From positions 868,001 to 932,000 of the forward strand of contig NZ_CP094974.1 in assembly GCF_022869805.1 (NCBI RefSeq): a stretch of 64,000 nt of DNA, in the 5' to 3' direction. This document shows positions 31,586 to 63,863 of this stretch, one piece after another. Every line of letters starts with the position of its first letter. The first letter of the stretch is position 1. The translations under genes and the position numbers were made by a program. Origin of the DNA: Halosolutus halophilus. Lineage in GTDB: Archaea > Halobacteriota > Halobacteria > Halobacteriales > Natrialbaceae. The notes below the pieces were generated by a model. It worked only from the letters and a program-made list of their open reading frames with translations, was not told the DNA's origin and did no database searches.

Positions 31586-31612
31586 ACATTAGCGCCCGTA
31601 TAAGAAAACCCG
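31586..31612 (+). promoter_or_regulatory. TTA-N8-ATARTAA-class site before the GlmU-like gene
   Basis: TTA (31590-31592), eight bases, then ATAAGAA beginning at 31601, 32 nt before the ATG at 31633. The second half is at TATA-box distance for a leaderless transcript. Confidence 0.6.
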
Positions 31613-31632
31613 ATCGAATCGTTCGGTCGCCC

Positions 31633-32820
31633 ATGCAAACTGTCGTTCTCGCGGCTGGACAGGGAACGCGAATGCGTCCGCTCTCCGAATCGATCCCCAA
31701 GCCGATGCTGCCGGTCGCCGGGCGGCCGTTGCTGTCTCACACAGTCGAAGCGGCGATCGAGTCCGGGTCGGACGAGATCGTCCTCGTCGTCGGATACGAG
31801 GGCGAGGTCGTTCGCGAGTACTTCGGCGATCGGTACGCGGGCGTCCCGATCCGATACGCCACCCAGGACGACCAGGACGGAACCGCGGGTGCACTCCGGG
31901 CTGCGAGCGAATTCCTCGCAGTCGATCGGCCGTTCGCGGTGATCAACGGTGACGTCGTGTTCGATCGGGACTCCCTCTCGACGCTGTTCGACGCGGGACC
32001 GGCCGTCGGATCGGTTCGCGTCGACGATCCGTCGAACTACGGGATTCTGGAGGTGTCCGACGGGAGCGTCACCGGTATCGTCGAAAAACCGGCGGAACCG
32101 CCGGGAACGCTCGCGAACGCAGGCGTGTACGTCTTCCCACCGCAGGCGCTCGACCGTCTCGACGTGCCGCGAAGCGAGCGCGGTGAGTACGAACTCACGG
32201 ACATCCTCGCGCGGGTGCTCGACGACGTCGATGTCGGCCACGTGAAACTCGATCGCTGGCTCGACGTCGGCCGGCCGTGGGAGTTGCTCGAGGCGAACGA
32301 GTGGAAACTGGGCGAGATGGAGACGGCACTTCGCGGGGACGTCAGTCCGGACGCCGACGTCGAGGGACCGGTCGTCGTCGAGGAGGGTGCCACGGTCCGT
32401 TCGGACGTCGTCATCGAGGGGCCGGCTCTGATCCGATCGGGTGCGACCGTGGGGCCGAACGCCTACGTCCGCGGGGCGACGCTCGTCGGGGAAGACGCCA
32501 ACGTCGGGCACGGCGTCGAGGTCAAGAACAGCGTGTTGATGGCCGGGACCAGCGTCGGGCACCTGTCCTACGTCGGGGACAGCCTCCTCGGTCGGGCGGT
32601 CAATTTCGGCGCGGGAACGACGGTCGCGAACCTGCGCCACGACGACGAGCCGATCGAGATGACCGTCTCGGGGGATCGCGTCTCGACCGATCGCCGGAAG
32701 TTCGGCGTCGTCCTCGGCGACGAGGTCAAGACGGGGATCAACACGAGTCTCAACGCCGGCGTGACGCTCTCGCCGGGAGCGACGACCGCACCCGGAGAAG
32801 TCGTGACGAGCGATCGGTGA
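31633..32820 (+). CDS. GlmU-like sugar-1-phosphate nucleotidyltransferase/acetyltransferase
   Basis: 395 residues from the ATG at 31633, where the domain starts; the frame is open far upstream. Nucleotidyltransferase: MQTVVLAAGQGTRMRPL, PIPKPMLPVAGRPL-type loop (IPKPMLPVAG), DEIVLVVGYEGE, AVINGDVVF and NAGVYVFPPQALDRL. After about residue 235 comes a left-handed beta-helix of hexapeptide repeats (GPVVVEEGATVRSDVVIEGPALIRSGATVGPNAYVRGATLVGE, ending NLRHDDEPIEMTV...KTGINTSLNAGVTLSPG). That is the bifunctional GlmU plan, giving UDP-HexNAc or another activated sugar. GlmM follows, so UDP-GlcNAc supply is likely. Confidence 0.88.
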   Translation: MQTVVLAAGQGTRMRPLSESIPKPMLPVAGRPLLSHTVEAAIESGSDEIVLVVGYEGEVVREYFGDRYAGVPIRYATQDDQDGTAGALRAASEFLAVDRPFAVINGDVVFDRDSLSTLFDAGPAVGSVRVDDPSNYGILEVSDGSVTGIVEKPAEPPGTLANAGVYVFPPQALDRLDVPRSERGEYELTDILARVLDDVDVGHVKLDRWLDVGRPWELLEANEWKLGEMETALRGDVSPDADVEGPVVVEEGATVRSDVVIEGPALIRSGATVGPNAYVRGATLVGEDANVGHGVEVKNSVLMAGTSVGHLSYVGDSLLGRAVNFGAGTTVANLRHDDEPIEMTVSGDRVSTDRRKFGVVLGDEVKTGINTSLNAGVTLSPGATTAPGEVVTSDR

Positions 32821-32865
32821 CGGACCTCACGATAGCCGACGGCCGGTGAAACCACACTGCCGACC

Positions 32866-32889
32866 CGCTTAGCGACCGCATAGTAATCC
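32866..32889 (+). promoter_or_regulatory. TTA-N8-ATARTAA-class site before glmM
   Basis: TTA (32869-32871), N8, ATAGTAA starting at 32880, 33 nt before the ATG at 32913. It supports that ATG over the GTG at 32895. Confidence 0.65.
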
Positions 32890-32912
32890 CGGCGGTGGCG
32901 TTCGGACGCAGT

Positions 32913-34238
32913 ATGTTCGGAACGAGCGGTATCCGTGGCACCGTTGGAGACGAGGTAACGGCAGCCCTCGCGCTCGGCGTGGGGCGCGCCGTCGCGTCCG
33001 ACGGCTACGATCGGGTCGTCGTCGGGCGGGACGTTCGAGAGAGCGGTGTCGTCCTGGCCGACGCACTGACCGCCGGACTCCGGGAGTGCGGAGCGGCGGT
33101 CCTCGACGCGGGCGTCGCGCCGACGCCGACGATCGCGAGAGCCGTCTCGTGGGCCGACGCCGACGCGGGCGTCGTCGTCACGGCCTCGCACAATCCGGCG
33201 CCGGACAACGGGCTCAAACTCTGGTCCGCCTCCGGTAAGGCGTTCGACCCGGACCAGCGCGAGGCGATCGCACGGCGCGTCGAACGCGAGGAGTACGACC
33301 TGCAACCCTGGGACGGCCACGGATCGATCGAACCGTTCGCGGACGCGACCGATCGCCACGCGACGGCACTGAGAGACGCCGTCTCGATCGACGACCCGCC
33401 GAGCGTCGTCGTCGACGTCGGAAACGGGACCGGCGGAATTACCGCCCGCGTCCTCGCCGACCTCGGCTGCGACGTCGTCACGCTGAACGGGCAGCGAGAC
33501 GGGAGTTTTCCCGGGCGGCCGAGCGAACCGACGCGGGAGACGCTGACCGATCTCGCCTCGCTCGTCGACTCGACCGACGCGCAACTCGGGATCGCCCACG
33601 ACGGCGACGCCGATCGGATGCTGGCCGTCGACGAGACCGGTGCGTTCGTCCCGAAAGACGTGCTCCTCGCGCTGTTCGCGCATGAAGCCGCGAGCGACGG
33701 CGACGCCGTCGCCGCGCCGGTCGATACGAGCATGGCCGTCGACGATGCCCTGACCGGCGTCGGCGCGTCGGTGCGACGAACGCAGGTCGGCGACGTCTTC
33801 GTGGCCGATCGAACCACGGACCCGGACGTCGTCTTCGGCGGCGAACCGAGCGGCGCGTGGATCTGGCCCGACGAGACGCTGTGTCCGGACGGGCCGCTCG
33901 CGGCGTGCAAACTCGTCGAACTCGTCGCCGATCGGGGGCCGCTCTCCGCGCTCGTCGGCGACGTCGAGACCTACCCCATCCGCCGCGCGTCGATCGAGGT
34001 CGCGGACAAGGGTGCCGTGATGAACCGGGTCAGCCAGCGCGTCCGCGATCGGTACGAGGACGTGGATACGCTCGACGGGGTCTACGTCGACCTCGACGAG
34101 GGGTGGATCCTCCTGCGGGCGAGCGGGACCGAACCCGTCGTTCGGATCACGGCCGAAGCGCGATCCGAAGCGCGAGCCGAACAACTCGAAGCGAACGCCG
34201 TCGAGATTCTCGAGCGCGCGATCGAAGCGGATTCGTGA
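32913..34238 (+). CDS. glmM: Phosphoglucosamine mutase-type alpha-D-phosphohexomutase
   Basis: 441 residues from the ATG at 32913. All four active-site segments are seen: catalytic Ser92 in VVTASHNPAPDNG, metal loop DGDADRML, sugar loop GEPSGAWIWPDE, and phosphate loop LRASGTEPVVRITAEA. It interconverts hexosamine-6-phosphate and hexosamine-1-phosphate (or the glucose/mannose equivalents); with the GlmU-like neighbour it makes UDP-GlcNAc. The start MFGTSGIRGTVGDEVT is the family's usual N-terminus. Glucosamine is the best but not only substrate guess. Confidence 0.88.
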   Translation: MFGTSGIRGTVGDEVTAALALGVGRAVASDGYDRVVVGRDVRESGVVLADALTAGLRECGAAVLDAGVAPTPTIARAVSWADADAGVVVTASHNPAPDNGLKLWSASGKAFDPDQREAIARRVEREEYDLQPWDGHGSIEPFADATDRHATALRDAVSIDDPPSVVVDVGNGTGGITARVLADLGCDVVTLNGQRDGSFPGRPSEPTRETLTDLASLVDSTDAQLGIAHDGDADRMLAVDETGAFVPKDVLLALFAHEAASDGDAVAAPVDTSMAVDDALTGVGASVRRTQVGDVFVADRTTDPDVVFGGEPSGAWIWPDETLCPDGPLAACKLVELVADRGPLSALVGDVETYPIRRASIEVADKGAVMNRVSQRVRDRYEDVDTLDGVYVDLDEGWILLRASGTEPVVRITAEARSEARAEQLEANAVEILERAIEADS

Positions 34239-34395: not shown

Positions 34396-34421
34396 GCGTT
34401 TAACGAACCGATAATGAAGTG
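34396..34421 (+). promoter_or_regulatory. TTA-N8-ATARTAA-class site (weaker) before the phosphodiesterase gene
   Basis: TTA (34400-34402), N8, ATAATGA beginning at 34411, 127 nt before the chosen ATG at 34538. It implies a leader or an earlier start; a GTG at 34478 is in frame. Confidence 0.5.
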
Positions 34422-34537
34422 TTCCAGTTCCCTCGCATGGGGTAGCTAACTGTGTTGTACCGAACGACACCGCTGCCGTGGTGCTGTCGGCAGCGGTCGA
34501 ACGGACCGACTGGTACCGAACGAACCTCACTGAACCG

Positions 34538-36223
34538 ATGACCCGGACGTTCCGACGAGACGACGCTGCATCGACCAGGAGTACCGCGACCGAATCGAAC
34601 GGGCTGGAGACGCTACTCGTCGGGATCGACGCGGGCTGTCTACCCGTCTTCGAGCGACTGTTCGACGACGATCGAATCCCGACCATCGAGCGACTGTGTT
34701 CGGAGGGTGTCGCGGCACCGCTCGAATCGCAGATCCCGCCGTGGACGCCGAGCGCCTGGCCGTCGATCTACACCGGAGTCAACCCCGGAAAACACGGGGC
34801 GATCGGCTTCGTCGGGTACGACGGTTACGACTGGCACGTGACGAGCAACGAGGACGTCCACGAGCATCCGCTGTGGACCCTGCTCGATCGCCGCGATCGG
34901 TCGAGCGTCGTGGTCAACGCGCCAGTCACGCACCCGCCGGACGAGTTCGACGGGGCCGTGATCCCCGGCTTCCTCGGCCCCGAGGATCCGACCTGTCACC
35001 CCGAGGGACTGCTCGACGAGGTTCGCGACGCGATCGGCGACTACCGGGTCTATCCGAACTACACACGTGACGACGACTCGCTGTCGGACGTCGCGAAGAT
35101 CGAGGAGTACCGGACCCTGATCCGGATGCGCGGCGAGGCGTTTCGCTACCTCGTCGACGAGTACGACCCCGATTTCGGGTTTCTCCAGTTCCAGAAGACC
35201 GACACAGTGTTCCACGAGTTCGACGGCGACCAGGAGCACGTCGAACGCGTCTACGAGACGGTCGACCAGCAGATCGCGGCGACGCTCGAGGCCTGTGACC
35301 CGGACCGCGTCTTCCTCGTGAGCGATCACGGGATGGGGCCGTACGACGGCTACGAGTTCCGGATCAACGAGTTCCTCCGCGACGAGGGCTACCTCGAGAC
35401 GACGACGGGCGGCAAAGGGATGCCGTCGTGGACGCCGATGCGCAGACGGCTTCGCGAGGGCGAAGCGTGCGAGAGCTGGGAACCCGGACCGGCCGCGCGT
35501 GCGGCCTCGATCGCCGCCCGGTTCGGCGTCACCGCCCGCCGAATCAGGACCGCCCTCGAGCGGGTCGGCCTGGCCGACCTCGCGATCGAGTACGCGCCGG
35601 GCGGCGTCTCGCGGACGGCGAACGAACAGGTCGACTTCGCCGGATCGAAAGCATACGTGCGTGCACGGACCGAACTCGGCGTTCGGATCAACCTCGAGGG
35701 ACGGGACCCGGCGGGCGTCGTTGCGCCCGAGGAGTACGAGGAACTCCGGGAGGACCTCATCCGGGCGTTACAGGCGGTCGAAACGCCCGACGGAGACCCG
35801 TTTTTCGAGACGGTCGCGCCGCGAGAACGGTACTTCCACGGGGACACGGTCGACGATACCGTCGACGTCGTCACGATTCCCGCCGACTTCGAGCACGTGC
35901 TCACCGAGCAGATCGGACTCGGCGACTACTTCGGGCCGGCCGAACCCTGGAATCACAAACTCGACGGGGTCTTCGTGGCGACGGGCGAGGGAATCGACGA
36001 GGACGCCGCGATCGATCGGGCGCACATCTTCGACGTCGCGCCGACGGTCATGGCCGCGATGGGGGTTCCCTACAGCGATCGCATGGACGGGAGCGTCGTC
36101 CCAGTCGTCGACCCGATCGAATCGGCGTCTTATCCCCCCTACGATGCCGAAACCGACGGCGAGCGACCGGAACCGGACGCGGAAGTGACCGATCGACTGG
36201 CCGACCTCGGCTATATGAACTGA
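34538..36223 (+). CDS. Alkaline-phosphatase-superfamily phosphodiesterase/phosphatase
   Basis: 561 residues from the ATG at 34538. Metal and nucleophile motifs: LLVGIDAG (Asp), PPWTPSAWPSIYTGVNPGKHG (Thr70 as nucleophile), FLQFQKTDTVFHEF (Asp and His), and VFLVSDHGMGP (Asp-His). This is the type I nucleotide pyrophosphatase/phosphodiesterase set. The C-terminal part, with the late HKLDGVFVATGEGI and AHIFDVAPTVMAAMGVP, belongs to the same fold. It has no export signal, so it probably acts in the cytoplasm, perhaps on nucleotide sugars or lipid phosphates. Confidence 0.88.
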   Translation: MTRTFRRDDAASTRSTATESNGLETLLVGIDAGCLPVFERLFDDDRIPTIERLCSEGVAAPLESQIPPWTPSAWPSIYTGVNPGKHGAIGFVGYDGYDWHVTSNEDVHEHPLWTLLDRRDRSSVVVNAPVTHPPDEFDGAVIPGFLGPEDPTCHPEGLLDEVRDAIGDYRVYPNYTRDDDSLSDVAKIEEYRTLIRMRGEAFRYLVDEYDPDFGFLQFQKTDTVFHEFDGDQEHVERVYETVDQQIAATLEACDPDRVFLVSDHGMGPYDGYEFRINEFLRDEGYLETTTGGKGMPSWTPMRRRLREGEACESWEPGPAARAASIAARFGVTARRIRTALERVGLADLAIEYAPGGVSRTANEQVDFAGSKAYVRARTELGVRINLEGRDPAGVVAPEEYEELREDLIRALQAVETPDGDPFFETVAPRERYFHGDTVDDTVDVVTIPADFEHVLTEQIGLGDYFGPAEPWNHKLDGVFVATGEGIDEDAAIDRAHIFDVAPTVMAAMGVPYSDRMDGSVVPVVDPIESASYPPYDAETDGERPEPDAEVTDRLADLGYMN

Positions 36224-36262: not shown

Positions 36263-36289
36263 CGTCGTTACTCGCGGTATAAGTATGGG
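36263..36289 (+). promoter_or_regulatory. TTA-N8-ATARTAA-class site before the Bat-type regulator
   Basis: TTA (36268-36270), N8, ATAAGTA from 36279, 50 nt before the ATG at 36329. Confidence 0.5.
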
Positions 36290-36328: not shown

Positions 36329-36991
36329 ATGGGATTTATTGCAGAAGTCCACCTCGTCCACGACGAACTGCCGCTGGGGCCGACGATCGAGCGGTGTCCC
36401 GGTGTGACGTTCAGATACGAGTACGGAGCGACGGCCAACGGGAAACGACTGCACTTCGTCTCCGCCTTCAGCGACGAGTACGAGGCCATCGAGGAGGCGA
36501 TGGCGGTCGATCCGACCGTCGCGGGCAGAACTCGCGTCGCCGCGTTCGAGAACCGGACGATCTACCGCGTCACGGTCGAGACCGCTCTCGAGGTCGTCCC
36601 CAGCCAGTGCGCCGAGCACGGGGTGTTCGTCTTTTCCGTCACGAGCGCCCAGGAGGGGTGGATAGCGCGGGTTCACCTCCCGGATCGCGACGCGCTGACC
36701 GCGTTTCAGACGTGCTATCGCGACCAGGGAATCTCGTTTCGAATGACCCAGCTGTACGACTCATCGGTGTCCGACGACAGGACCTACTTCCTGACCGACC
36801 GACAGCGCGACATCCTCACGATGGCGTACTACGCCGGGTACTACGAGGTTCCACGAGAGATCACGCAGGACGACCTCGCCGATCGACTCGAGATTTCGGA
36901 TTCGGCGGTCTCCCAGCGGCTTCGACGCGCCGTCTCGGAGTTGATCGCCGCAACGATCGAGCACGAACACTCGCCCGACGAGGTCGGGTGA
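36329..36991 (+). CDS. Bat-type HTH_10 transcription regulator
   Basis: 220 residues. The C-terminal 50 (TDRQRDILTMAYYAGYYEVPREITQDDLADRLEISDSAVSQRLRRAVSEL) are the HTH_10 domain of bacterio-opsin-activator-like regulators. The N-terminal 150 form the usual Bat-associated ligand domain, without PAS or GAF. It sits in the middle of the surface-sugar locus on the same strand as its neighbours, so it may control that locus; the motif sites would be the obvious test. Nothing indicates the signal. Confidence 0.85.
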   Translation: MGFIAEVHLVHDELPLGPTIERCPGVTFRYEYGATANGKRLHFVSAFSDEYEAIEEAMAVDPTVAGRTRVAAFENRTIYRVTVETALEVVPSQCAEHGVFVFSVTSAQEGWIARVHLPDRDALTAFQTCYRDQGISFRMTQLYDSSVSDDRTYFLTDRQRDILTMAYYAGYYEVPREITQDDLADRLEISDSAVSQRLRRAVSELIAATIEHEHSPDEVG

Positions 36992-39063: not shown

Positions 39064-39092
39064 GACCGTTTAACCCCCGTATAATAACGCCG
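39064..39092 (+). promoter_or_regulatory. TTA-N8-ATARTAA-class site before the flippase
   Basis: CCGTTTA, eight bases, ATAATAA from 39081. It is 113 nt before the GTG used here and 29 nt before a TTG at 39110, which therefore deserves checking as the true start. Confidence 0.6.
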
Positions 39093-39193
39093 CGCTGTCG
39101 CCACCCTCCTTGTACCGTGAGTACGTCGGATGCCGAACGAGTGTCGTCGGGGGGGACTACAAACCGGTGGCACGACCGTTCCAGGGTGATCCC

Positions 39194-40831
39194 GTGAACC
39201 GGAGTATCGCGAGCGGCGTGTTCTCGGTCGTCAGTGCGAAGCTCATCGTACTCGTCGTTACTACCGTCTCCACGCCGCTTCTGTACCGGTTTCTCGGCGC
39301 ATCGGCCTTCGGTGAGTACGCGTTCTTGCTCTCCGTCTTCGCGATCTACATGATCTTCGTCAGTTCCGGGATCACGGACGGCGTCCGGAAGTTCCTCGCC
39401 GAGGATCGCGGCGAGGCGAACTGGAGCGAACACGTCGTCGGCTTCTACTTCCGGCTGGCGGTTCTCCTCGCCGTCATCGGCGCGCTCGTGCTCGTCCTCG
39501 CGACCCAGTTCGGACTCGTCGCACTCGCGTTCGGGTCGGAGGTGACCCCCTACTTCTACGTCCTCGCCGTGCTCGTGATCTCGGCGCAGTTCCGCGACTA
39601 CACCCGGAAGACGCTCATGGGTTTCGGGCTCGAGCGGTACTCGGAACCGCTGAAGATCCTCGACAAGTTCGGCTTCGTCGCGATCGCGATCCCGCTGACC
39701 TACGTCGGATTCGGTGTCATGGGTGCGCTCGCGGGCCACCTGGTCGCGAGTCTACTCGTCACCGCCGTCGGACTGGCACTCGTTCACCGCCGGGTCTCGC
39801 TGTCGTGCGTCTTCAGCCGCCCGCCAAACCGGTTTCCGCGCCGGAAGATGCTCACGTTCAACTCGCTGAACATCGCGCTCGTGTTCCTGCTGATGTCGCT
39901 GTACCACATCGACATCGTGATGCTCCAGCGGTTCAGCGAGAGTTCCGCCGTGGGGAACTACCGGGCGGCGCTCACGCTCGCAGAATTCCTCTGGTTCGTC
40001 CCGCTGGCGATCCAGACGGTGTTCGTCCACTCGACGTCCGAACTGTGGTCGCAGAACCGGCACCGCGAGATTTCCGCGCTGGCGTCCCGGACGACGCGGT
40101 ACACGTTCCTGCTGACGGCCGTCATGGCGGTGGGTCTCGCGGCCCTGGCGGACGTCGCCGTGCCGATCTACTTCGGCGACGAGGCGGTTCCGGCGATCGA
40201 ACCCCTCCTGCTGTTGCTCCCGGGAGCGCTCGGCTTCGCGCTCGCACGACCGATCCTCGCCGTCTCGCAGGGGAACGGGGCACTCCGATATCCGATCGCG
40301 GCCACCGGTAGCGCGGCCGTCATCAACGTCGTGCTCAACGTCGCGCTCATCCCGCGCTACGGGATGCACGGTGCGGCCGTTGCGACCAGCGTGGGATACG
40401 GTTCCATGTTCGTCTTTCACTGCTGGACCGCTCGACTCGTCGGCTTCGACCCCCTCGCGGACGCACGGCTCGGTCGAGTGGTCCTGACGACCGTCCTCGC
40501 GGCCGTCCCCATCGTCACCCTCTCGACCGCGATCACGAACCCCTGGGTCGCACTCGCAGTCGTCCCGCCGATCGGGTTCGTCGTCTTCCTGGCCTTCGCC
40601 CTGTTCGTCGGCGCACTGGATCCGGCAGAACCGTTCGAAATTCTGTCGACCTTCCCGGACCCGATCGGGACGAAGGCGAACGCGATCCACCGGCGGCTCG
40701 AGGGCGTCGGGAACGACGGATCCTCGCGCGACTGGGTACAGAGCCTGCTGGTTCTCGCCGGGCTCTCCCTGTTCGTCTCCGGCCTCGCCCTCGGGATACT
40801 GGACCCCGGCGTCCAGCACGTGCTGCCGTGA
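39194..40831 (+). CDS. Polysaccharide/oligosaccharide flippase (MOP superfamily)
   Basis: 545 residues from the GTG at 39194, where the first helix begins (NRSIASGVFSVVSAKLIVLVV); the TTG at 39110 would add 28 residues. About 12 to 14 hydrophobic segments have the Wzx/RfbX pattern: STPLLYRFLGASAFGEYAFLLS, then ISAQFRDYTRKTLMGFGLERY, and late YGMHGAAVATSVGYG. A helix pair follows at the end. It should move lipid-linked glycans or polysaccharide repeat units across the membrane. AglR-like function in S-layer glycosylation is possible. It is not overlapped by other genes. Confidence 0.88.
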   Translation: MNRSIASGVFSVVSAKLIVLVVTTVSTPLLYRFLGASAFGEYAFLLSVFAIYMIFVSSGITDGVRKFLAEDRGEANWSEHVVGFYFRLAVLLAVIGALVLVLATQFGLVALAFGSEVTPYFYVLAVLVISAQFRDYTRKTLMGFGLERYSEPLKILDKFGFVAIAIPLTYVGFGVMGALAGHLVASLLVTAVGLALVHRRVSLSCVFSRPPNRFPRRKMLTFNSLNIALVFLLMSLYHIDIVMLQRFSESSAVGNYRAALTLAEFLWFVPLAIQTVFVHSTSELWSQNRHREISALASRTTRYTFLLTAVMAVGLAALADVAVPIYFGDEAVPAIEPLLLLLPGALGFALARPILAVSQGNGALRYPIAATGSAAVINVVLNVALIPRYGMHGAAVATSVGYGSMFVFHCWTARLVGFDPLADARLGRVVLTTVLAAVPIVTLSTAITNPWVALAVVPPIGFVVFLAFALFVGALDPAEPFEILSTFPDPIGTKANAIHRRLEGVGNDGSSRDWVQSLLVLAGLSLFVSGLALGILDPGVQHVLP

Positions 40832-51457: not shown

Positions 51458-51484
51458 GCGCTTAACGGTGCCATAGTAATGGCG
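51458..51484 (+). promoter_or_regulatory. TTA-N8-ATARTAA-class site before the asparagine-synthase-like gene
   Basis: GCTTA, eight bases, ATAGTAA from 51473, 105 nt before the ATG at 51578. Back-to-back with the site serving the opposite strand. Confidence 0.6.
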
Positions 51485-53990: not shown

Positions 53991-54581
53991 TCAGTTGATG
54001 TTCCAGCCGATCGTGAGCACCGTATAGAGGATCAGGATCAGTGCGCTGAGACCGATCCCGGAGAGGAACGAGGTGAACGGCAGTTCCATCACGGCACCCA
54101 GCAGGACGACGTAGCCGACGACCGTCGCTCCGATGTAGTAGTCGCCCCAGTGGGCCCCGTCAGTTCCCGTCTCGGCGGACGGTTCGTCGGTCGGTTCCAG
54201 CTCGAGGTACGTATCGACCCGGTCCGCGAGGGGCTTTCGCTCGACGATACCGCGGTTCTGCTGGTAGTCGATGACGCCCGCCTCGTCGAGTTTCGTGAGA
54301 TGAGACTGGTAGAGGGGGATGTAGACGCGCTGGCGCTGCGTCGACGTGAGTTCTTCGACGGTCGTATCGTGTTCCCACGCAGCGACCTGTTCCGCGATGT
54401 CGCGCATGCGGACGGGACCTTCGGTCCCGCGAAGGTACCGGAGAACCATACGACGGCGTTCGTTTTGCAGGAGATGAAAGATTTCGTCTTTCGAGAAGGC
54501 TGGCTCTTCAGAGGGGGCGTCAGCTTCGTCATTCGAACCCTGCTCACCCTGTTCTTCTGAGCTGATATGTGTCGCGTTCAT
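53991..54581 (-). CDS. DUF7344-type winged-helix protein with C-terminal membrane hairpin
   Basis: 196 residues. An acidic N-terminus is followed by FSKDEIFHLLQNERRRMVLRYLRG, MRDIAEQVAAWEHDTTVEELTSTQRQRVYIPLYQSHLTKLDEAGVIDYQQNRGIVE, the canonical DUF7344 winged helix with the Q-S-H-L-x-K recognition helix. Two hydrophobic segments end the protein. It probably binds DNA while membrane-tethered. The 388-bp upstream gap holds several palindromes, and these may be its own operators. Confidence 0.85.
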   Translation of the reverse strand: MNATHISSEEQGEQGSNDEADAPSEEPAFSKDEIFHLLQNERRRMVLRYLRGTEGPVRMRDIAEQVAAWEHDTTVEELTSTQRQRVYIPLYQSHLTKLDEAGVIDYQQNRGIVERKPLADRVDTYLELEPTDEPSAETGTDGAHWGDYYIGATVVGYVVLLGAVMELPFTSFLSGIGLSALILILYTVLTIGWNIN

Positions 54582-54922: not shown

Positions 54923-54948
54923 GCTTATCCGGGCGATAATAAACCCGC
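54923..54948 (+). promoter_or_regulatory. TTA-N8-ATARTAA-class site before the DUF1616 gene
   Basis: GCTTA, eight bases, ATAATAA beginning at 54936, 34 nt before the ATG at 54970. Confidence 0.7.
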
Positions 54949-54969: not shown

Positions 54970-55959
54970 ATGAGCGACTCCAACTGGTGGTTTTCCGATC
55001 AGGCGATCGTCATCGCGATCACTGGTGCACTCACGTACGGCATATTTTCCGGCATCGGGGGCGTTGCACGAATCGCGCTAGCAATCCCGCTCGTCCTCTT
55101 TCTTCCCGGGTACGCGCTCGTCTCGGCGCTCTTTCCGGACAGGCCGACCGACGACTACCAGTCGTTCGACGAAGAGAAGACGGGCCTCGGAAATCCCCTG
55201 CTGGTTGACGGAGGACTCGAAGCGGTCGAACGGTTCGTCCTGTCAGTTGCCTTCAGCGTTGCGCTCGTCCCGGCGATCACCCTTTTCGCGTCCGTAACCC
55301 CAGGGGTTTTGTCGGTCGAACCGGTTCTCTCTGGACTTTCAGTGCTCACTATCGTCCTCGCACTAATCGCGATCGGTTCTCGCTATCGGTGTGCGCCCGA
55401 TCGGCGGTACGTTCCGTCGCTCTCCGCTGCGCCGCTGTTTTTCACTCGAACGCGGCCGTCGCTCTACAGTGGACCGAACCACCGACCGTACAACGCCGCG
55501 ATCGTGGTCGGCCTGATCCTGTTGCTCGCGAGCGCCGGATTCGCGGTCGCGAACCCGCCCCAACACGACGGGTTCACGGAGTTCGCGATCGAAACCGAGA
55601 ACGTCACCGGCGAGACCGAGACGATGTACGAATCGAACTACACCGCCGGAGAGACCCAGGAACTTACTGCCACGATCACGAACCGCGAACACGAAGAACG
55701 GTCCTACACGACCGTCGTGTTGCTCCAGCGAGTGAGCTACGACGATGGGAACGCCACCGTCCACGAGACGGCCGAACTGGATCGGAAGTCGGTGACGGTT
55801 CCGGACGGTGCGACACACGAGCAAACCCTCAACGTAACCCCGACGATGCGGGAGGGGGAGTTGCGGCTGACACTGCTCCTGTACGACGGCGAGCCGTCGA
55901 GTGAGCCCGCTGCCGACGACGCCTACCGCGTGATTCGGCTCCCGATCGAAGTCGAGTAG
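54970..55959 (+). CDS. DUF1616 membrane protein
   Basis: 329 residues. Four hydrophobic segments in the first 190 residues (WFSDQAIVIAITGALTYGIF; ALAIPLVLFLPGYALVSALFPDR, the DUF1616 hallmark LFLPGYALVSALFP; VEPVLSGLSVLTIVLALIAIGSRY; AIVVGLILLLASAGFAVA). An extracellular beta-sandwich follows (FTEFAIETENVTGETETMYESNYTAGETQELTATITNREHEERSYTTVV). The family is found beside surface-glycan genes in archaea and has no established activity. Possible sequons (NVT, NYT) suggest glycosylation. It is the last plus-strand gene before the minus-strand glycosyltransferase operon. Confidence 0.85.
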   Translation: MSDSNWWFSDQAIVIAITGALTYGIFSGIGGVARIALAIPLVLFLPGYALVSALFPDRPTDDYQSFDEEKTGLGNPLLVDGGLEAVERFVLSVAFSVALVPAITLFASVTPGVLSVEPVLSGLSVLTIVLALIAIGSRYRCAPDRRYVPSLSAAPLFFTRTRPSLYSGPNHRPYNAAIVVGLILLLASAGFAVANPPQHDGFTEFAIETENVTGETETMYESNYTAGETQELTATITNREHEERSYTTVVLLQRVSYDDGNATVHETAELDRKSVTVPDGATHEQTLNVTPTMREGELRLTLLLYDGEPSSEPAADDAYRVIRLPIEVE

Positions 55960-56836: not shown

Positions 56837-58813
56837 TCACGCACTCGCCGGCGACGTGGTACACATCGTCACGTCCCCGTTCGTGTAGACCGTCGCCTGA
56901 TCGGACCGACACAGCCTGTCCTGCGAGATTTGCTCGATCCGGCCCTCCCCGCCGTCGTCCGTAAAGTAGACCGCGTCGGACGACTGTCTCGATCGGTAGA
57001 CCACGTACTCGTGATCCGCAACGCCGCCGTCGGGGACCGTCGCGGTCGTCGTCGACGGGTACGCGCCGGTCCGGCTGAACAGGGTCTGGTAGGGATGATC
57101 GGTGTGGAGTTGCTGATCGGGACGGATCTCGCTGCCGTCCGGCGAACCGGTCAACTCGGCGATCGACCCTGCTGCCGCGAGTTCCGACCGGTCGTACGCG
57201 AGGCGCTCGTGCTGGTCGTCGAAGGCCGGGTTGTCGATGTTACTCTCGGTCGCGAAGATCATCGCCCCCGGGTAGACGAGCACGAATAGCAGGAGGACGG
57301 AGACGACGAGCCCCGGCGAGAGTTTCCCGCTCAGGGTTCGCAGGCCGATCGCGCCGAGAATCGACATCGGCGCGTAGAGGAAGGCGAACCATCGCGTCGG
57401 GATGAAGGTGTGGATACCGAACATCGGCATCCCCATGACGAACACGAGCATGAACGCCGCCCCCAGCAAGAGCGTGAACACCGACTGTTCGGCGCGTCGC
57501 CGGTGGACGACGTACAGACAGCCGACGAACGTTGCGCCGAGCAGGAACAGGAAGCCGAGGGCGTCGATGTAGGGGACGAACTGTTCGACCACCGTCGCCG
57601 CCTCGGCCCCCGCCTCGGCCGGGTCGCCCGACGAGTCGCTCGCGATGTTGAGGAAGCCGGCGCTCTCCTCGACCGTCTGGCTGAAGAAACTCAGGACGGT
57701 CGCCAGGAACGACTGCTGACGATACGGCGTCAGCGACCAGACGAAGATCGTGAGCCCGAAATTGAAGACGACGAGCCCGACGAGGTTGACCGGCTTCTTC
57801 GCCCGGAAGACGCTCGCGTCGAGTCGCGTGAGCCCGAGCGGCCCGACGACGAACACGAGTTGCGCGACGAACGCCGCGATCAACAGCACGAGCATGATGA
57901 ACGTCGACACCTGGTGGGTGAGGATCACGGCGACGCTCAACAGGAGGAGCAACGAGAAGTCCCGGAACGTGTACTCGATCCGCATCACCCGGATCAGCGC
58001 GTACAGCATCCCGAGGAAGAAGACGAGCCCCAGACTCGTGGGGATGAGATGCATACCCCACATCACGACGTGGCTCGCCAGGGCGTAACACCCCGCCGCC
58101 AGCGTCGCCCACCGTTGCGAGACGAGCAAATTCGTCGCCGCGTAGACGAGCAGGATCGAGAGCGGCATCACGAGCCCCACCGAGAGGTACACCGCCGTGC
58201 GTATCGGCACGTCGTACAGCAGCGCCGACGCGGCGACGAGCAGGTGGTAGAACGGCGACGCGTAGTGTTTGTCGTCGGAAATCGCGTCGAGAGAGCCCTC
58301 CGTGAGGATCGCGCGCGTGAGTTCCGTGTGCGTCCAGATGTCGATCCCGATGTAGCCCGGCGTCACGTACAGCGCGGTGAACCGGAAGACCAACGCGAAG
58401 CAGACGATCTGGAACAGCAACAGCCCCGGCTTGAAGTCGCGATCGGTCGTGAAGAGAATCTGGCCGAGCAGGAGCGACCCGACGACGCTCGCCACCCCGA
58501 AGAAGAGGTGGGTTCGAGTCCCCTGAATCACCGCCAGGAGCACGAGTCCCGCGAGTCCGGTCAGGACGAGACCCGGGAGCGCCATCGCCACCCCCGTCGG
58601 AAGCGTCGGGAGTGTGTGTGCGTCCTCCTGCTGGTACAGGGCGACGAGATACAGCGTACACGCGGTTCCGAGCAGTATCGGGACGGTGTCGAGGTAGATC
58701 TGCGACGCGAACAGTCGCAGCGGGAACAGCCCCATCGCGATCAGGAGCCCACCGATCGCGGCGACCGTGTCGAGTCGCAGCGGTCGCAGTTCCGACAGCG
58801 ATCTATACTCCAT
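56837..58813 (-). CDS. Large GT-C-type membrane glycosyltransferase
   Basis: 658 residues from the ATG at 58813 (MEYRSLSELRPLRLDTVAAIGG). About 13 hydrophobic segments. The first large outside loop has ALYVTPGYIGIDIWTHTELTRAILTEGSLDAISDDKHYASPFYHLLVAASALL, the D/E-rich loop typical of GT-C (PMT/AglB/ArnT-like) enzymes, whose Asp-Ile-Asp/Asp-Ile-Trp element carries the metal or base. The C-terminal domain is soluble. It is likely to add a sugar from a lipid donor to the outside glycan. Last gene of a minus-strand operon, its start overlapping the GT4 stop by 11 bp. Confidence 0.75.
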   Translation of the reverse strand: MEYRSLSELRPLRLDTVAAIGGLLIAMGLFPLRLFASQIYLDTVPILLGTACTLYLVALYQQEDAHTLPTLPTGVAMALPGLVLTGLAGLVLLAVIQGTRTHLFFGVASVVGSLLLGQILFTTDRDFKPGLLLFQIVCFALVFRFTALYVTPGYIGIDIWTHTELTRAILTEGSLDAISDDKHYASPFYHLLVAASALLYDVPIRTAVYLSVGLVMPLSILLVYAATNLLVSQRWATLAAGCYALASHVVMWGMHLIPTSLGLVFFLGMLYALIRVMRIEYTFRDFSLLLLLSVAVILTHQVSTFIMLVLLIAAFVAQLVFVVGPLGLTRLDASVFRAKKPVNLVGLVVFNFGLTIFVWSLTPYRQQSFLATVLSFFSQTVEESAGFLNIASDSSGDPAEAGAEAATVVEQFVPYIDALGFLFLLGATFVGCLYVVHRRRAEQSVFTLLLGAAFMLVFVMGMPMFGIHTFIPTRWFAFLYAPMSILGAIGLRTLSGKLSPGLVVSVLLLFVLVYPGAMIFATESNIDNPAFDDQHERLAYDRSELAAAGSIAELTGSPDGSEIRPDQQLHTDHPYQTLFSRTGAYPSTTTATVPDGGVADHEYVVYRSRQSSDAVYFTDDGGEGRIEQISQDRLCRSDQATVYTNGDVTMCTTSPASA

Positions 58814-59765
58814 GGCCGACCTCCGTGCGCTGTTTCGCTCCGTCACACTGGTCGAGCACCCGACGGTACACGCCGAGGAGGCGATCACCGAGCGAGTCGA
58901 TCCCGAGCCCGTCGATCGACTCGCGGCCGTTGGATCGGCTGCCCTCGTCGACGATCCGCTCGAGACCGCCGATCAGGGCACCGTCCCGGTCGCTGACGAC
59001 GCAGTTCTCCACCCCGCCGATCGTCTCGCGGACGAAGCCGACGTCGGTCGAGACGATCGGCAGGTTGCACGCGGCAGCCTCCTTGACGACCATCGGCCCG
59101 CTCTCTCGTTTCGACGTCACGAGGAGGACGTCGCTCGCGTTCATGTAGGCGGGGATCTCCTCGTGGGCGACGCCCGAGACGGTCCGCAGGTCGACGTCGA
59201 CGTCCGCACGCTCGACGAGCCGGCGCGCCCGCGGGAAGTCCTTCACGTCCCGGTCCCGGTCGTACGGGAAGAGCGCGATCGGTCGATCGGTCTCCCAGCC
59301 GACGCGATCGCGGGCCTCGTCCCGCGGCATCGGCCTGAACAGGTCGGTGTCGACGCCGAACGGGAGCAGATCGTGCTCGGTTCCGAGTGCGCGTGCCATG
59401 GGCCGGCTCGGAACGACCGCGGCGTCCGCCCGTCGGGCCCCGAACCGGCTCAGCGATCGGAGCCACGAGTGCTCGCTCATCAGGTCGGTCCCCCACAGGG
59501 TCACTACGACGGGCCGGGTCGGCTGGGCGAGCGCGAACGGGACGACGAGGCCGTAGTTCGCGTGCACCAGGTCGTACTCCGTCGACCGGATCGTCGAGAG
59601 GACGTCCCGGTAGTATCGCGCGTACGCCGTCGGCGATCGGGACGAGTCACCGCCGTGCTCGCCGGGCACGCCGAGCACCGTACAGTCGACGCCGCGCTCC
59701 TCGAGGGCCGACACCTGCTGGTCGAAGAACGGTCGCGGCGTCGTGACCAGCTGTAGTACCTTCAT
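58803..59765 (-). CDS. Family 4 glycosyltransferase (GT-B)
   Basis: 320 residues from the ATG at 59765, where the fold begins (MKVLQLVTTPRPFFDQQVSALEERGVDCTVLGVPG). GT-B features: YDLVHANYGLVVPFALAQPTRPVVVTLWGTDL, DAAVVPSRPMARAL, then the C-terminal donor site DVLLVTSKRESGPMVVKEAAACNLPIVSTDVGFVRETIGG (the E-x7-E element). It transfers a hexose from a nucleotide sugar on the cytoplasmic face. Its start overlaps the DUF354 stop by four bases (ATGA at 59762-59765). Confidence 0.88.
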   Translation of the reverse strand: MKVLQLVTTPRPFFDQQVSALEERGVDCTVLGVPGEHGGDSSRSPTAYARYYRDVLSTIRSTEYDLVHANYGLVVPFALAQPTRPVVVTLWGTDLMSEHSWLRSLSRFGARRADAAVVPSRPMARALGTEHDLLPFGVDTDLFRPMPRDEARDRVGWETDRPIALFPYDRDRDVKDFPRARRLVERADVDVDLRTVSGVAHEEIPAYMNASDVLLVTSKRESGPMVVKEAAACNLPIVSTDVGFVRETIGGVENCVVSDRDGALIGGLERIVDEGSRSNGRESIDGLGIDSLGDRLLGVYRRVLDQCDGAKQRTEVGHGV

Positions 59766-60835
59766 CGTTCGCTCGTCGTGGTCGCGTGAGCCGATCGGTT
59801 CGACGCGGATGTCCGCGCGAGCGTTTCGAGTTGCTGGACGACGAGTTCCGTCACGTCGACCCGCTCTTCGAGCAGGGCGTCGCGGCGTCGTCGCCACGGT
59901 TCGCGGGATTTCCCGACGATCGAGACGGCGCGTTCGAGCCCGCGCACGTGTCGCATCTCGCCGTTGTACTCGAACAGCAGCCCGTACTCCTCCTCGAGTT
60001 CGGTCGTGTAGCCGAGCGAGAGGGGGTTCACGTAGACCGACGGCGTTCCGAGTACGGCGGCTTCCGACGCGGTCGTCGCGCCCTCGCTCAGGGCGACGTC
60101 GGCGTAGGCCAGCAGGTCGTGCATCCGGTCCGGTGCCGTCGAGAACTGGTAGGCCTCGAGGTCGGCCGGGGGCTCCCCTTCCGCCGCGAGCAGGACCCGG
60201 ACGCCCTCGTCCTCGAACCGATCGACGATCTCGTGAGGGTCGTCGAAGCCACCGTGGCCGACGTCGTGGGAGGCCCCCCAGCTGCTGAGTCGCACGACGG
60301 CGAACTCCTCGTCCGGCTCGATGTCGACCGCCTCGAGAACCGACGGATCGGGTTCGAACCGATCGGGGTGAAGGTAAGCGAGTTCGTGGTACCCCGGGTA
60401 CGACACCTGTTTCGGGCCGAGGTCGTCCCGGTAGCACGACGGGGTGCAGATCACGTCCGCGAACGGGTAGCCGAGTTTCGTGATGAGGGTCGCGTGTTCG
60501 GTGTCGTAGAAGACGATACTCTTCGTCCGCAACGCCGACGCGACGTGGGCGGCAGCGACGCCGCCGATCGCCGCGATCACGTCCGGATCGATCCGTTTCG
60601 CTCGCCGCAACAGTCGCATCTCGTAGGTGGCCTGGACTGCGGCCAGCGAGAGCAGTCCGTCCGACTCGCCGGCCAGCACCTCGTGGTCGATATCGTAGGC
60701 CTCGAGGAGCTCGATCGCGACGTCGTTCTCGCGCGCGAAGACGTGTACGTCGTGCCCCCGCGCCTGTAGTTCCGCGATCGGATTGCGGAAGAAGTGAACG
60801 TGACCGGGGTGCTGGATCGTGATCACGACGCGCAT
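59762..60835 (-). CDS. DUF354 glycosyltransferase-like protein
   Basis: 357 residues. DUF354 hallmarks: VVITIQHPGHVHFFRNPIAELQARGHDVHVFARE at the start, DIDHEVLAGESDGLL, KRIDPDVIAAIGGVAAAHVA, FYDTEHATLITKLGYPFADVICTPSCY, and ALSEGATTASEAAVLGTPSVYVNPLSLGYTTELEEEYGLLFEY. The fold is GT-B like UDP-GlcNAc 2-epimerases; both an epimerase and a transferase role are considered in the literature. It is in operon with the GT4 protein. Membrane anchoring is not seen. Confidence 0.85.
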   Translation of the reverse strand: MRVVITIQHPGHVHFFRNPIAELQARGHDVHVFARENDVAIELLEAYDIDHEVLAGESDGLLSLAAVQATYEMRLLRRAKRIDPDVIAAIGGVAAAHVASALRTKSIVFYDTEHATLITKLGYPFADVICTPSCYRDDLGPKQVSYPGYHELAYLHPDRFEPDPSVLEAVDIEPDEEFAVVRLSSWGASHDVGHGGFDDPHEIVDRFEDEGVRVLLAAEGEPPADLEAYQFSTAPDRMHDLLAYADVALSEGATTASEAAVLGTPSVYVNPLSLGYTTELEEEYGLLFEYNGEMRHVRGLERAVSIVGKSREPWRRRRDALLEERVDVTELVVQQLETLARTSASNRSAHATTTSER

Positions 60836-60976
60836 CGAGGTGCCACCTCCGCGATCGCGTTGGCGTCTCGATCGGACTCCGTACGGGCCAGTCGGATTCC
60901 GGGTCCAGTACCCGCCGCTCGGATCGCCGCCGATACGATCCCGCCGTCGACCGACCGATCGCTGGATAGCATCGTC

Positions 60977-62377
60977 TCACAGCCTCCGATAGACGAATCC
61001 CGCCTCGACGGCGTCGGATTCCTCGATCGCGCCCGTCACGTCGATCAGTGCGGGACTCGCTTCGACTTCTGACGCCACCGCCTCGAGGTCCAGGTCCACG
61101 AACTCCGCGTGGGGTGTCGCGAGCACGACCGCGTCGTATCCCTCGAACGAGAGCGTCTCCTGGACCTCGATGCCGAACGCGTCTCGGACCGCCTCGTCGT
61201 CGGCGAACGGGTCGAATCCCGCGACGTCGACGTCGTACTCCTGGAGCGCGTCGACGACGTCGACGACCTTCGAACTGCGAATGTCGCCCACGCCCGGTTT
61301 GTACGACAGCCCCAGTACCAGGACGCGACTCTCGCGGAGCGTCTTGTGACAGCGGTTGAGCGCCTTGATCGTCATGTCGGCGACGTGGTCGGGCACCGAC
61401 TCGTTCACCTTCCGGCTCGTTCGCACCAGCTCCGGCTCGTACCCGTCCTGTGCCGATCGGTACGCGAGGAAGTACGGATCGACCGGGATACAGTGGCCGC
61501 CGACCAGTCCCGGCCGGTAGTCGTGGAAGTTCCACTTCGTTCCCGCCGCCTCGAGGACCGCCCGGGCGTCGACGCCCATCTCGTCGAGCGCCATCGATAG
61601 CTCGTTGACGAACGCGATGTTGAGGTCGCGCTGGGCGTTCTCGACGACCTTGCACGCTTCCGCGGCCTCGATCGAGGGAGCGCGATGGACGCCCGCGTCG
61701 ACGATCGACTCGTACAGCGTCGCCACGTCGTCGAGCACGCTCTCGTTCTGCGCACTGACGACCTTGACGACGTCCTCGAGGCCGTGCTCGGGGTCGCCCG
61801 GCGTGGCGCGTTCCGGCGAGTAGCCCACGAAGAAGTCCTCGCCCGCGACGAGATCGGACGCGTCCTCGAGCGCCGGGACGAGCACCTCGCGCGTCGAACC
61901 CGGGTAAACGGTCGACTCGAGGACGACCGTCGTCCCGGGATCCATCTTCGAGCCGACGGTGGTCGCCGCGCTCTCGACGTAGCTCAGGTCCGGCCGATCG
62001 TCGTCGTCGATCGGCGTCGGAACGGTGATGACGACGTAGTCAGCCTCGCCGATCACGTTCGCGTCGGTGGTATAGGAGATGTCACCGTCCTGAATCACCT
62101 CGTCGGAGAGGTCGCCGGTCGTGTCGATCCCCGCCTGCAGTCGATCGACCGTCCTCTCGTCGACGTCGTACCCGAGCACGCGATACTCCGACTGCGCGAA
62201 GCCGACTGCGAGCGGCAGTCCGACGTACCCGAGTCCGACGACGCAGATCGTCGCCTCGCGGGTGGCCTCCTCCTCGACGTGCTCGAGGGCGGTTCCCCCG
62301 CCGCTCGCGTCCAGGTCGTACCGGTCGCTCTCTCGATCGTCCCCTCGCGTCTCCGTGTCGCTGATTGTCGTGGTCAT
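60977..62377 (-). CDS. Nucleotide-sugar dehydrogenase (UDP-glucose/UDP-ManNAc type)
   Basis: 466 residues from the ATG at 62377; the frame extends to 62407. The N-terminus is a poorly structured acidic segment, then the NAD loop ICVVGLGYVGLPLAVGFAQSEYRVLGYDVDERTVDRLQ. Then come the Thr-Pro-x-P loop TVPTPIDDDDRPDLSYV, STVYPGSTREVLVP, the substrate helix NAQRDLNIAFVNELSMAL, the catalytic Cys in VGGHCIPVDPYFLAYRS and the C-terminal SYKPGVGDIRSSKVVDVVDALQEYDVDVAGFDPFAD. This is the UDP-ManNAcA/UDP-GlcA dehydrogenase family (AglM-like), making a uronic acid for the glycan. First gene of the five-kilobase minus-strand operon. Confidence 0.9.
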   Translation of the reverse strand: MTTTISDTETRGDDRESDRYDLDASGGGTALEHVEEEATREATICVVGLGYVGLPLAVGFAQSEYRVLGYDVDERTVDRLQAGIDTTGDLSDEVIQDGDISYTTDANVIGEADYVVITVPTPIDDDDRPDLSYVESAATTVGSKMDPGTTVVLESTVYPGSTREVLVPALEDASDLVAGEDFFVGYSPERATPGDPEHGLEDVVKVVSAQNESVLDDVATLYESIVDAGVHRAPSIEAAEACKVVENAQRDLNIAFVNELSMALDEMGVDARAVLEAAGTKWNFHDYRPGLVGGHCIPVDPYFLAYRSAQDGYEPELVRTSRKVNESVPDHVADMTIKALNRCHKTLRESRVLVLGLSYKPGVGDIRSSKVVDVVDALQEYDVDVAGFDPFADDEAVRDAFGIEVQETLSFEGYDAVVLATPHAEFVDLDLEAVASEVEASPALIDVTGAIEESDAVEAGFVYRRL

Positions 62378-62487: not shown

Positions 62488-62515
62488 GCCGTTTACTATA
62501 CCTCGAATAAACGGT
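62488..62515 (-). promoter_or_regulatory. TTA-N8-ATARTAA-class site before the minus-strand glycan operon
   Basis: On the minus strand CCGTTTA, eight bases, ATAGTAA from 62499, 122 nt before the ATG at 62377. The arms CCGTTTA and TAAACGG are exact inverted repeats, the best dyad among these sites. Confidence 0.65.
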
Positions 62516-62735
62516 TGCAAGCGGCGCGGGTGAGAGAATCCGGACGACTGAGCGGGGAGCGGGCTGGTTTGTCGGATCGGCAGGCAGACGTCGTGACGGA
62601 CGTTTATACCGTTGTTAAACGCTCATGTACCGATTCATAATGAAGGTCCTTCGGATCCGATTGCCAGTGCGGTCGGTGAACTCACGACGGTCGTGAGTCG
62701 ACCACCCATCGACCGCAGCAGAACCGTGACAACCC

Positions 62736-63383
62736 ATGGTGCCCACTATCCAGACCGGAGTCGGAGCCTCGTTCGCGTCGATCCACAGCAGTTACCCGAT
62801 TAACATGGGTTCCGTTCCGATCTCCCAGTTCGACACGCACTCGATCGCGATACCGACGATCGGCTCCGAGATCGGTGTCCGATCCGGTGGACTGTTGTCC
62901 TGGATGCAACCGCTTCGCGTGGCGTCGTTCTGGGAGATAGCCATGGTCGCGGTTCTGTTCTTGCTCGTCAGCGGGCTCGTCGGAATTCGCGTCGCAGAGA
63001 TGCTGGCGGAACGCGACGTCGAAATTACGGCGCTCCCGCTGATCACGGACACGGCAGCTGACTCGGACGAGGGGGACCGCACACGTACCGACGATCACCT
63101 GGGGTACGAACGGTATCTCTCGCCCGACACACCACCGGAACTTCTGAGCGACGAAGGGAGAGTGGTCCGACTGCTCGTCGCGAATCGCGGTCGTATTCGA
63201 CAGCACCAGATCGCCGAAGAGACCGGTTGGTCGAAGTCGAAGGTCAGCAGGATCTGCTCGCAGATGCACGCCGACGGGACGATCGAGAAGTCCTCGGTCG
63301 GGAGGGAAAACGTCATCACCCTCACCGAGACCGAACCGGACGACGAGACGCAGTCGGACGAGGTCGAGAATCCGCTTCCGTGA
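62736..63383 (+). CDS. Membrane-anchored winged-helix protein (DUF7343-like)
   Basis: 215 residues from the ATG at 62736. A hydrophobic helix at about 65-85 (SFWEIAMVAVLFLLVSGLVGIRVAEML) is followed by a linker and a C-terminal winged helix: DEGRVVRLLVANRGRIRQHQIAEETGWSKSKVSRICSQMHADGTIEKSSVGRENVITL. The WSKSKVSR recognition helix is typical of haloarchaeal one-component membrane regulators. Target and signal are unknown. It stands alone in the gap between the glycan operon and the end of the window. Confidence 0.8.
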   Translation: MVPTIQTGVGASFASIHSSYPINMGSVPISQFDTHSIAIPTIGSEIGVRSGGLLSWMQPLRVASFWEIAMVAVLFLLVSGLVGIRVAEMLAERDVEITALPLITDTAADSDEGDRTRTDDHLGYERYLSPDTPPELLSDEGRVVRLLVANRGRIRQHQIAEETGWSKSKVSRICSQMHADGTIEKSSVGRENVITLTETEPDDETQSDEVENPLP

Positions 63384-63466
63384 GCACGCGTCGTGCATGC
63401 CACCACTCTGTTTCGCACCACCCGGAAGCGAACCGGACCCGCCGCGCCGGCGGCACCCACTTTTTC

Positions 63467-63540
63467 CGTCACTTGGCTACCGACGACGCCTTCACTTTCT
63501 CGTCACTTGCCTCTCGACGCCCTCACGTTCCCGTCACTTG
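63467..63540 (+). repeat. Three spaced CGTCACTTG repeats
   Basis: CGTCACTTG at 63467, 63501 and 63532, spaced 34 and 31 bp, each followed by a GC-rich stretch that also resembles its neighbours. It lies in the otherwise gene-free 63384-63935 gap (552 bp). It could be a short tandem duplication or a set of binding sites. Confidence 0.45.
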
Positions 63541-63835
63541 CCCACTGGCGACGGCATCTCCGACGGCGACGGTTCCACTGGCCGTCACGACACGTCTCAC
63601 AGATCGCAACTGGCGTCCAACCGGAGACTCGTTTAAGATCCACGTAAGCGCGTCGACGCGCCTCGTAGCGGTTTCGAGCCGACGAATTGTTCCTGCCCGT
63701 CTCGGGAGTACTCGGGACGCCGGTTCGATACGTACCGAGCCGGACGGTTGTCACGATATTTGGGTGCGGAATCGGGGGACGAGACACGACTTGCACAGCA
63801 CGAAACCGTGTCTGACGTTATACAGCCGACAGTGA

Positions 63836-63863
63836 CCGTCTTATTCGTCGTATAGTAATGGCC
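63836..63863 (+). promoter_or_regulatory. TTA-N8-ATARTAA-class site before the last gene
   Basis: CCGTCTTA, eight bases, ATAGTAA beginning at 63852, 84 nt before the ATG at 63936. Its left part resembles the site before the dehydrogenase operon. Confidence 0.6.

Follow-up and report, generated by a model that had tools for sequence, protein, structure and literature searches.

The window analysed here, a 64,000-nucleotide (nt) stretch of the Halosolutus halophilus genome (contig NZ_CP094974.1, positions 868,001 to 932,000), carries a surface-glycan locus at which an element of the form YTA-N8-RTARKRA recurs upstream of the transcription units. The exact pattern, scanned on both strands, matches the window 12 times, compared with a mean of 0.47 and a maximum of 3 in 100 dinucleotide-preserving shuffles. 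The original prediction had listed 13 sites, and 12 of these match the pattern, with coordinates within ~6 nt of those recovered by the exact scan. The remaining one, at position 36268, lies off the stated consensus and scores only 12.3 with the position weight matrix (PWM), whereas the other sites in the window score 17.9 to 29.1. Nevertheless, six genomes keep TTAC(T/A/C)CG..TATAARTA upstream of their orthologs of the gene at 36329, so that this variant is conserved, not spurious. As predicted, the motif is absent to the left of the locus, with no exact matches at positions 1 to 31588.

The gene calls used here are our own and based on composition, and the domain labels come from Pfam; the genomes and loci used for comparison are cited by G and L numbers, respectively. 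The leftmost site (31589 to 31606, TTA-N8-ATAAGAA) starts its second half 33 nt before the ATG of a gene for a GlmU/AglF-like sugar-1-phosphate nucleotidyltransferase (31633 to 32820; NTP_transferase and hexapeptide domains) and is found at the same place in G002. It is followed by the site (32869 to 32886, also 33 nt from the ATG) of GlmM, a phosphoglucosamine/phosphomanno-mutase (32913 to 34238; PGM_PMM domains I to IV), which is conserved in G002 and G006, and by that of a type I phosphodiesterase of the alkaline-phosphatase superfamily (site at 34400 to 34417, leader of ~67 nt, gene at 34478 to 36223; Phosphodiest domain), conserved in G001, G002, G007, and G010. The variant site at 36268 to 36285, TTACTCGCGGTATAAGTA, which is also TrmB-operator-like, stands before the gene for an HTH_10 regulator with an additional BAT domain (36329 to 36991), a protein that is not obligatory for the motif. 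The widely conserved site at 39070 to 39087 precedes a Wzx/MurJ-like polysaccharide flippase gene (39116 to 40831; Polysacc_synt domain), with a hand-counted distance of 35 nt to the GTG start codon. All these features are on the forward strand.

In the right-hand part of the locus, sites are found on both strands. Two genes for polysaccharide-deacetylase-like lipoproteins of the twin-arginine translocation (Tat) pathway are read leftward: deacA (46002 to 47270), which has no Pfam match but shows tblastn similarity to deacB (G010/G004), with its site at 47298 to 47315, 34 nt from the ATG, and deacB (50020 to 51342; Polysacc_deac_1 domain), with a CTA variant at 51373 to 51390, 37 nt from the ATG. 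Also on the reverse strand is the site at 62493 to 62510, from which a leader of ~120 nt leads into an operon (56837 to 62374) of ugd, a DUF354/glycosyltransferase gene, a GT1 gene, and a gene for a large membrane protein. Sites on the forward strand precede the family 2 glycosyltransferase gene GT2b (site at 47435 to 47452, 34 nt; gene at 47480 to 48478), a gene for a secreted AstE/AspA-like protein with a PKD domain (48632 to 48649, 36 nt; 48679 to 49887), an asparagine-synthetase-like gene, termed AsnS-like, that served as a marker for homologous clusters (51462 to 51479, leader of ~105 nt; 51578 to 53284; Asn_synthase domain), and a DUF1616 membrane protein gene (54925 to 54942, 34 nt; 54970 to 55959). 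The last site in the window (63841 to 63858, forward strand) would serve the glmS transcript, whose coding region starts at ~64089, outside the window, after a long leader with a small open reading frame (ORF), and an additional typical site lies beyond the right edge of the window at the equivalent of position 68186 on the reverse strand, 34 nt before an ATG. Two further genes of the locus encode candidate regulators, a DUF7344 winged-helix protein (53991 to 54581, reverse strand), whose AlphaFold2 (AF2) model ends in two C-terminal helices that are likely transmembrane, and a MarR-like winged-helix protein of the DUF7343 family (62736 to 63383, forward strand).

Spacing typical of leaderless transcripts had been claimed for seven of these sites and was measured at eight, where the second half of the element starts 33 to 37 nt before the start codon; longer leaders follow the sites at 34400, 51462, 62493, 63841, and 36268. 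Genes for a universal-stress protein and for TrkA/TrkH are interspersed among the motif-bearing genes and have no motif sites. Because these genes in between are skipped, the motif appears to mark a functional regulon rather than a property of the region. The putative regulon covers the supply of sugar nucleotides and the steps by which a surface polysaccharide is assembled, exported, and modified.

Long leaders are seen in the glmS, ugd, and AsnS-like transcripts, and most other targets look leaderless. The glmS leader (positions 63859 to 64000, continuing to ~64088) was compared at seven loci (L031, L035, L038, L043, L044, L048, and L049). A GC-rich hairpin in this leader shows weak covariation, at 2 of its 6 pairs, and a small ORF (MTRNSTA.. 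or MSVHRSPSRT..) is also conserved, which overlaps the start of glmS in some genomes. An Rfam search covering part of the locus returned nothing above the gathering score.

The genome of H. halophilus consists of a single contig of 5,058,678 bp, and the genome-wide counts rest on pattern searches. The exact pattern matches the genome 42 times, compared with 50 matches for the reversed control, but 13 of the 42 fall within 37 kb (C1:899589-936203; binomial P of ~3e-18), and only four of the 29 matches outside the locus score at least 20 bits. One outside match, at 3796161, precedes a lipoprotein gene and is common to three members of the genus, and another unlinked match, at 4818239 (17 bits), is located upstream of one more gene for a deacetylase-like lipoprotein. 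The match at 1681551 is in the promoter of a TrmB-family gene, and the pair at 2835200/2836398 has another TrmB-family gene and a dehydrogenase gene as neighbors. Although conserved, these three matches were rejected as members of the regulon and taken instead for probable TrmB operators; trmB promoters of different genera retain TACTCG and the ARTA half, whereas the ATARTAA box is not kept. Both the trmB promoter and the surroundings of a TrmB-like gene with a sugar dehydrogenase gene retain such apparent TrmB operators, YTACTCG-N6-ARTAAA (L058, L059, and L217-L246), a conservation that suggests autoregulation of trmB in Natrialbaceae. No even spread over unrelated promoters was found: outside the locus, the matches are at control level and mostly either low-scoring or accounted for by TrmB operators, so that a dedicated element is still a tenable idea after the genome scan.

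Contrary to the original prediction, the motif is not confined to one locus. A second, smaller type of locus, located in the same genome at C1:2747-2758 kb (2747568-2758000, L075), comprises genes for an HTH_10 paralog, GlmU, a 68-aa CxxC protein, GlmM, a small winged-helix protein, a phosphodiesterase, and often GlmS. Its promoters carry the motif or a GTA variant (TTA or GTA-N8-TATAGTAA), as do those of the other Natrialbaceae loci of this type (L068-L071, L076-L078, and L091-L094). Besides this precursor locus, the motif is present in orthologous clusters of many haloarchaeal families.

The anatomy of the element was derived from 88 sites in eight related clusters, which yield the consensus G-Y-YTA-W-C-N5-K-ATARTAA-W, followed by a TA 15 to 16 nt past the ATARTAA box and by a purine-rich stretch at the usual place of the start codon; a separate set of 127 sites from outside Natrialbaceae shows the same form. 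In the eight Natrialbaceae clusters, TTA and ATARTAA are near-invariant, and the spacers vary. Across 63 cluster loci, TTA stands at position -11 before 172 of the 250 ATARTAAW boxes (218 with CTA included), whereas no other offset occurs more than 3 times, and the distance from the box to the ATG peaks sharply at 34 nt. When promoters are aligned by the ATG, the 39 with the motif show TTA at -45 to -43, the AT-rich box ATARTAAW at -34 to -27, and TA (within a more general WA) at -12/-11. The 315 without it show A at -35 to -33, the place of the transcription factor B (TFB) recognition element (BRE), and T at -29 to -27, the place of the TATA box, in agreement with the published haloarchaeal consensus of a CGAAA BRE, a TTWT TATA box, and WW at -10 (PMC4983044). 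At motif positions 6 to 11, A is found in only 3 to 27% of the sites, in contrast to the A peak of the other 315 promoters. The element resembles canonical haloarchaeal promoters in its AT-rich box at about -30, its putative -10 WA at about -11, and its probably leaderless spacing but differs from them in the lack of a BRE signature, in having ATARTAAW as the presumed TATA box, and in the additional YTA, invariant 11 bp upstream. The contention that a normal BRE/TATA arrangement does not include the upstream half at its constant spacing is borne out, and the data support a distinct, mostly leaderless promoter class that marks surface-glycan genes.

The motif is present at the same promoters, with differing spacers, in G001, G002, G003, G004, G006, G007, and G010. 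Most of 117 Natrialbaceae genomes have more motif matches than the reversed control. Throughout the order, several of the other families show an excess and the rest do not, and the matches cluster at homologous loci; an element private to this locus is thereby ruled out. A search for the AsnS-like family produced 80 named loci, and windows of ±10 kb around AsnS in these contain 264 PWM matches of at least 20 bits (74 outside Natrialbaceae), compared with a single match for the reversed matrix. In loci that hold the gene and at least one site, the GT2b promoter has a site in 41 of 41 cases; sites are also present at the promoters of deacB (35/38 loci), DUF1616 (36/47), the flippase (31/47), and ugd (35/54). 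Orthologous motif-bearing promoters across genera include those of GlmU, GlmM, the flippase, GT2, the deacetylase-like lipoproteins, DUF1616, the AsnS-like protein, Ugd, and GlmS, and genera with the motif include Haladaptatus, Halostella, Halogranum, Halorussus, Haloprofundus, Halobellus, Halobacterium, Haloarcula, and Haloferax. Haladaptatus-type genomes additionally have an isolated conserved site (TTAAGCGTGCCATAATAAA; L125:6145; G138, G228, and G243) before the phosphodiesterase gene, at some remove from the main cluster.

We favor the view, with a probability of about 0.62, that the element represents a dedicated class of haloarchaeal core promoters that coordinates a regulon for surface polysaccharides and nucleotide sugars. 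The sequence itself shows the motif with its rigid spacing, where it stands relative to start codons, that it is conserved at orthologous promoters, and that a BRE signature is missing; from this we infer a promoter role, protein binding at YTA, and an activating effect. In the proposed mechanism, ATARTAAW, at about -33 to -26, would be the TATA box for the TATA-binding protein (TBP), with the usual BRE missing, and the YTA box, at about -44, would lie exactly 11 bp, i.e., one helical turn, upstream, just beyond the normal TFB footprint. A sequence-specific activator bound at YTA would dock beside TFB/TBP and replace BRE-driven recruitment, so that the transcription units of the cluster and the linked and unlinked precursor genes would fire jointly, mostly as leaderless mRNAs. 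The simplest reading of a YTA box placed one turn upstream of the TATA box, outside the BRE, is that a second DNA-binding protein touches or bridges to TFB/TBP, and with the BRE missing and the TATA box atypical, activation is likelier than repression. In a broader version, which we put forward only tentatively, haloarchaea would use YTA and a BRE-less TATA box, in a fixed 11-bp register, as an alternative, bipartite kind of core promoter with its own dedicated set of factors. In function, this would be the archaeal equivalent of a regulon under an alternative sigma factor and would switch the whole surface-polysaccharide program in many haloarchaeal families.

Several points weigh against a dedicated, activated promoter class. 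The only symmetric feature of the motif, TTA-N12-TAA, would also suit a dimer covering the TATA box, i.e., a repressor; being weak, this symmetry led us to set aside a palindromic repressor operator, which is retained as a caveat. None of the regulators encoded in the locus occurs in all of the clusters that bear the motif. Some of the 80 loci had also served to train the PWM, the co-occurrence windows are limited to ±10 kb, and the sequences are phylogenetically related, so that the counts are inflated and not independent; this last objection is mainly answered by conservation across families whose spacers cannot be aligned. As a separate observation, some sites are close to palindromes and give a match on each strand at once (L110:7870/7887, L112:17906/17920, and L086:2958/2972), as if one element served two directions.

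Among the other explanations, an origin of the motif by chance or from composition, as AT-rich promoter boxes in a GC-rich genome, might be considered because such boxes are general in haloarchaeal promoters and the reversed pattern matches the genome 50 times, but it is ruled out for practical purposes by the shuffles, the reversed controls, the single spacing offset, and the conservation across families. It is also conceivable, though rather unlikely, that a dedicated TFB/TBP pair reads the whole element, YTA and ATARTAAW together, without a classical activator. The absence of the BRE and the atypical TATA box are in line with this, and a general factor would explain why the motif is spread so widely among genomes with differing local regulators. 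However, the TFB recognition helix contacts a BRE of 6 to 7 bp in TBP/TFB-DNA structures, and YTA, 9 to 11 bp upstream of the TATA box, is outside the reach of the BRE; no TFB or TBP gene was seen among the locus proteins scanned against Pfam. Precedents exist in Halobacterium, where TBP-TFB pairs regulate gene classes (PMC2121645) and the bop TATA box is off consensus (PMC1447603). The TbpD/TfbA classes of that genus likewise link a promoter class to a functional gene set, but the accessible parts of the literature on them report no motif of such form. Still less probable is a TrmB-type sugar-responsive operator that overlaps the TATA box and is bound by TrmB or a paralog, an idea to which the TA-to-TA offset of 14 bp, equal to that in TACT-N7/8-GAGTA (PMC3794607 and PMC4158304), lends some appeal, as do the shared theme of sugar metabolism, the control that TrmB exerts in Halobacterium over the supply of glucose for glycosylation of the S-layer (PMC10817205), and the fact that the pattern also catches what look like TrmB operators, both at the trmB promoter and at the sugar-dehydrogenase-like locus. 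The half-sites nevertheless differ (YTAWC/ARTAA versus TACTC/GAGTA), with C at position 4 in 12% and T at position 5 in 21% of the glycan sites; the glycan element has a fixed spacing and is always on the TATA box, whereas trmB promoters retain TACTCG but lose the AT of ATARTAA. Furthermore, trmB is equally common in motif-poor and motif-rich genomes, few TrmB-family genes are located within the clusters, and the paper on chromatin immunoprecipitation sequencing of Haloarcula hispanica TrmB makes no mention of exopolysaccharide.

As to the protein that would bind the YTA box, the original prediction pointed to the Bat-type protein encoded at 36329, which, together with its paralog at the second locus, would act as an activator in the manner of Bat at bop. 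The two cases are alike in that the bop promoter combines an upstream activator site (UAS) with an atypical TATA box (PMC1447603), just as an activator-like box here adjoins an atypical TATA box in a small coordinated regulon. The HTH_10 protein is encoded in most Natrialbaceae clusters, its ~40% paralog adjoins the second motif locus, the HTH_10 domain resembles sigma-70 region 4, and the promoter of the gene itself has the motif variant. Yet the element has YTA instead of the bop UAS and one rigid spacing over hundreds of sites, and by co-occurrence, a Bat-family protein is not required. Motif clusters exist without either paralog in G124 (Saliphagus) and G024, both 99% complete genomes, in which the best match genome-wide is only ~31 to 35% identical and lies outside the cluster; none is present within the G004 cluster; and in the 80 loci, HTH_10 is not associated with the motif (P = 0.68 at ≥40% identity), with an opposite trend outside Natrialbaceae. 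This excludes HTH_10 as the sole regulator and makes the protein at 36329 a poor candidate and its role as the activator quite improbable.

The best linked candidates appear to be DUF7344 (53991) and DUF7343 (62736). One or both, probably anchored in the membrane, might bind the motif directly and report the state of the envelope to the cluster, a possibility that is worth entertaining at somewhat long odds. A DUF7344 gene lies within ±10 kb at 50 of 60 motif loci versus 3 of 15 others (P = 7e-6) and, outside Natrialbaceae, at 13 of 23 motif loci versus 3 of 15 without the motif (P = 0.04; P = 0.009 for either DUF7344 or DUF7343); the co-occurrence of DUF7343 with the motif is similar but weaker. 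Both are present in the G024 and G124 clusters, which have no HTH_10 orthologs, and for several loci without DUF7344 inside 10 kb, the cluster or the genus has the gene at a greater distance. The AF2 model has a winged-helix-like core (helix-helix-helix-helix-strand-strand, with a predicted local distance difference test score of ~90), followed by the two probable membrane-spanning helices. On the other hand, the second-type and Haloferax loci have the motif but no close DUF7344 ortholog nearby, Foldseek searches of PDB matched winged-helix regulators only weakly (best E value, 0.025), both are large paralogous families, and shared cluster membership alone yields co-occurrence. The linkage is accordingly a lead, not an identification, and an unlinked factor would be equally possible. 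The small winged-helix protein beside GlmM was rejected as a common factor: it is found at second-type loci but has close paralogs everywhere.

The left 25 kb of the window (~54 to 60% GC) is island-like and adjoins the glycan locus, which has 65% GC. It contains two very similar 283-aa ORFs on the reverse strand (4751 to 5602 and 16676 to 17527), perhaps copies of an insertion-sequence gene.

In its biological theme, the locus resembles the acidic exopolysaccharide genes of Haloarcula hispanica (aepG/HAH_1206, HAH_1662, and HAH_1667), for which the accessible part of the report gives no shared promoter element (PMC9943897); the glycosyltransferase GT2a, encoded at 44861, may be of the dolichol phosphate (DolP)-sugar-synthase type, like AepG. 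No description of the motif was found in the open-licence literature searched, and judging from its distribution, it seems to be the switch for an entire regulon that has not been described. How archaea coordinate dozens of scattered transcription units for surface polysaccharides is poorly understood, and the motif bears on this problem as well as on the roles of the many haloarchaeal TBP and TFB copies and of the DUF7344 and DUF7343 families. Such a sharp promoter signature would define a regulon in silico, would closely predict its transcription starts, and would offer both a bait for the factor and a simple reporter.

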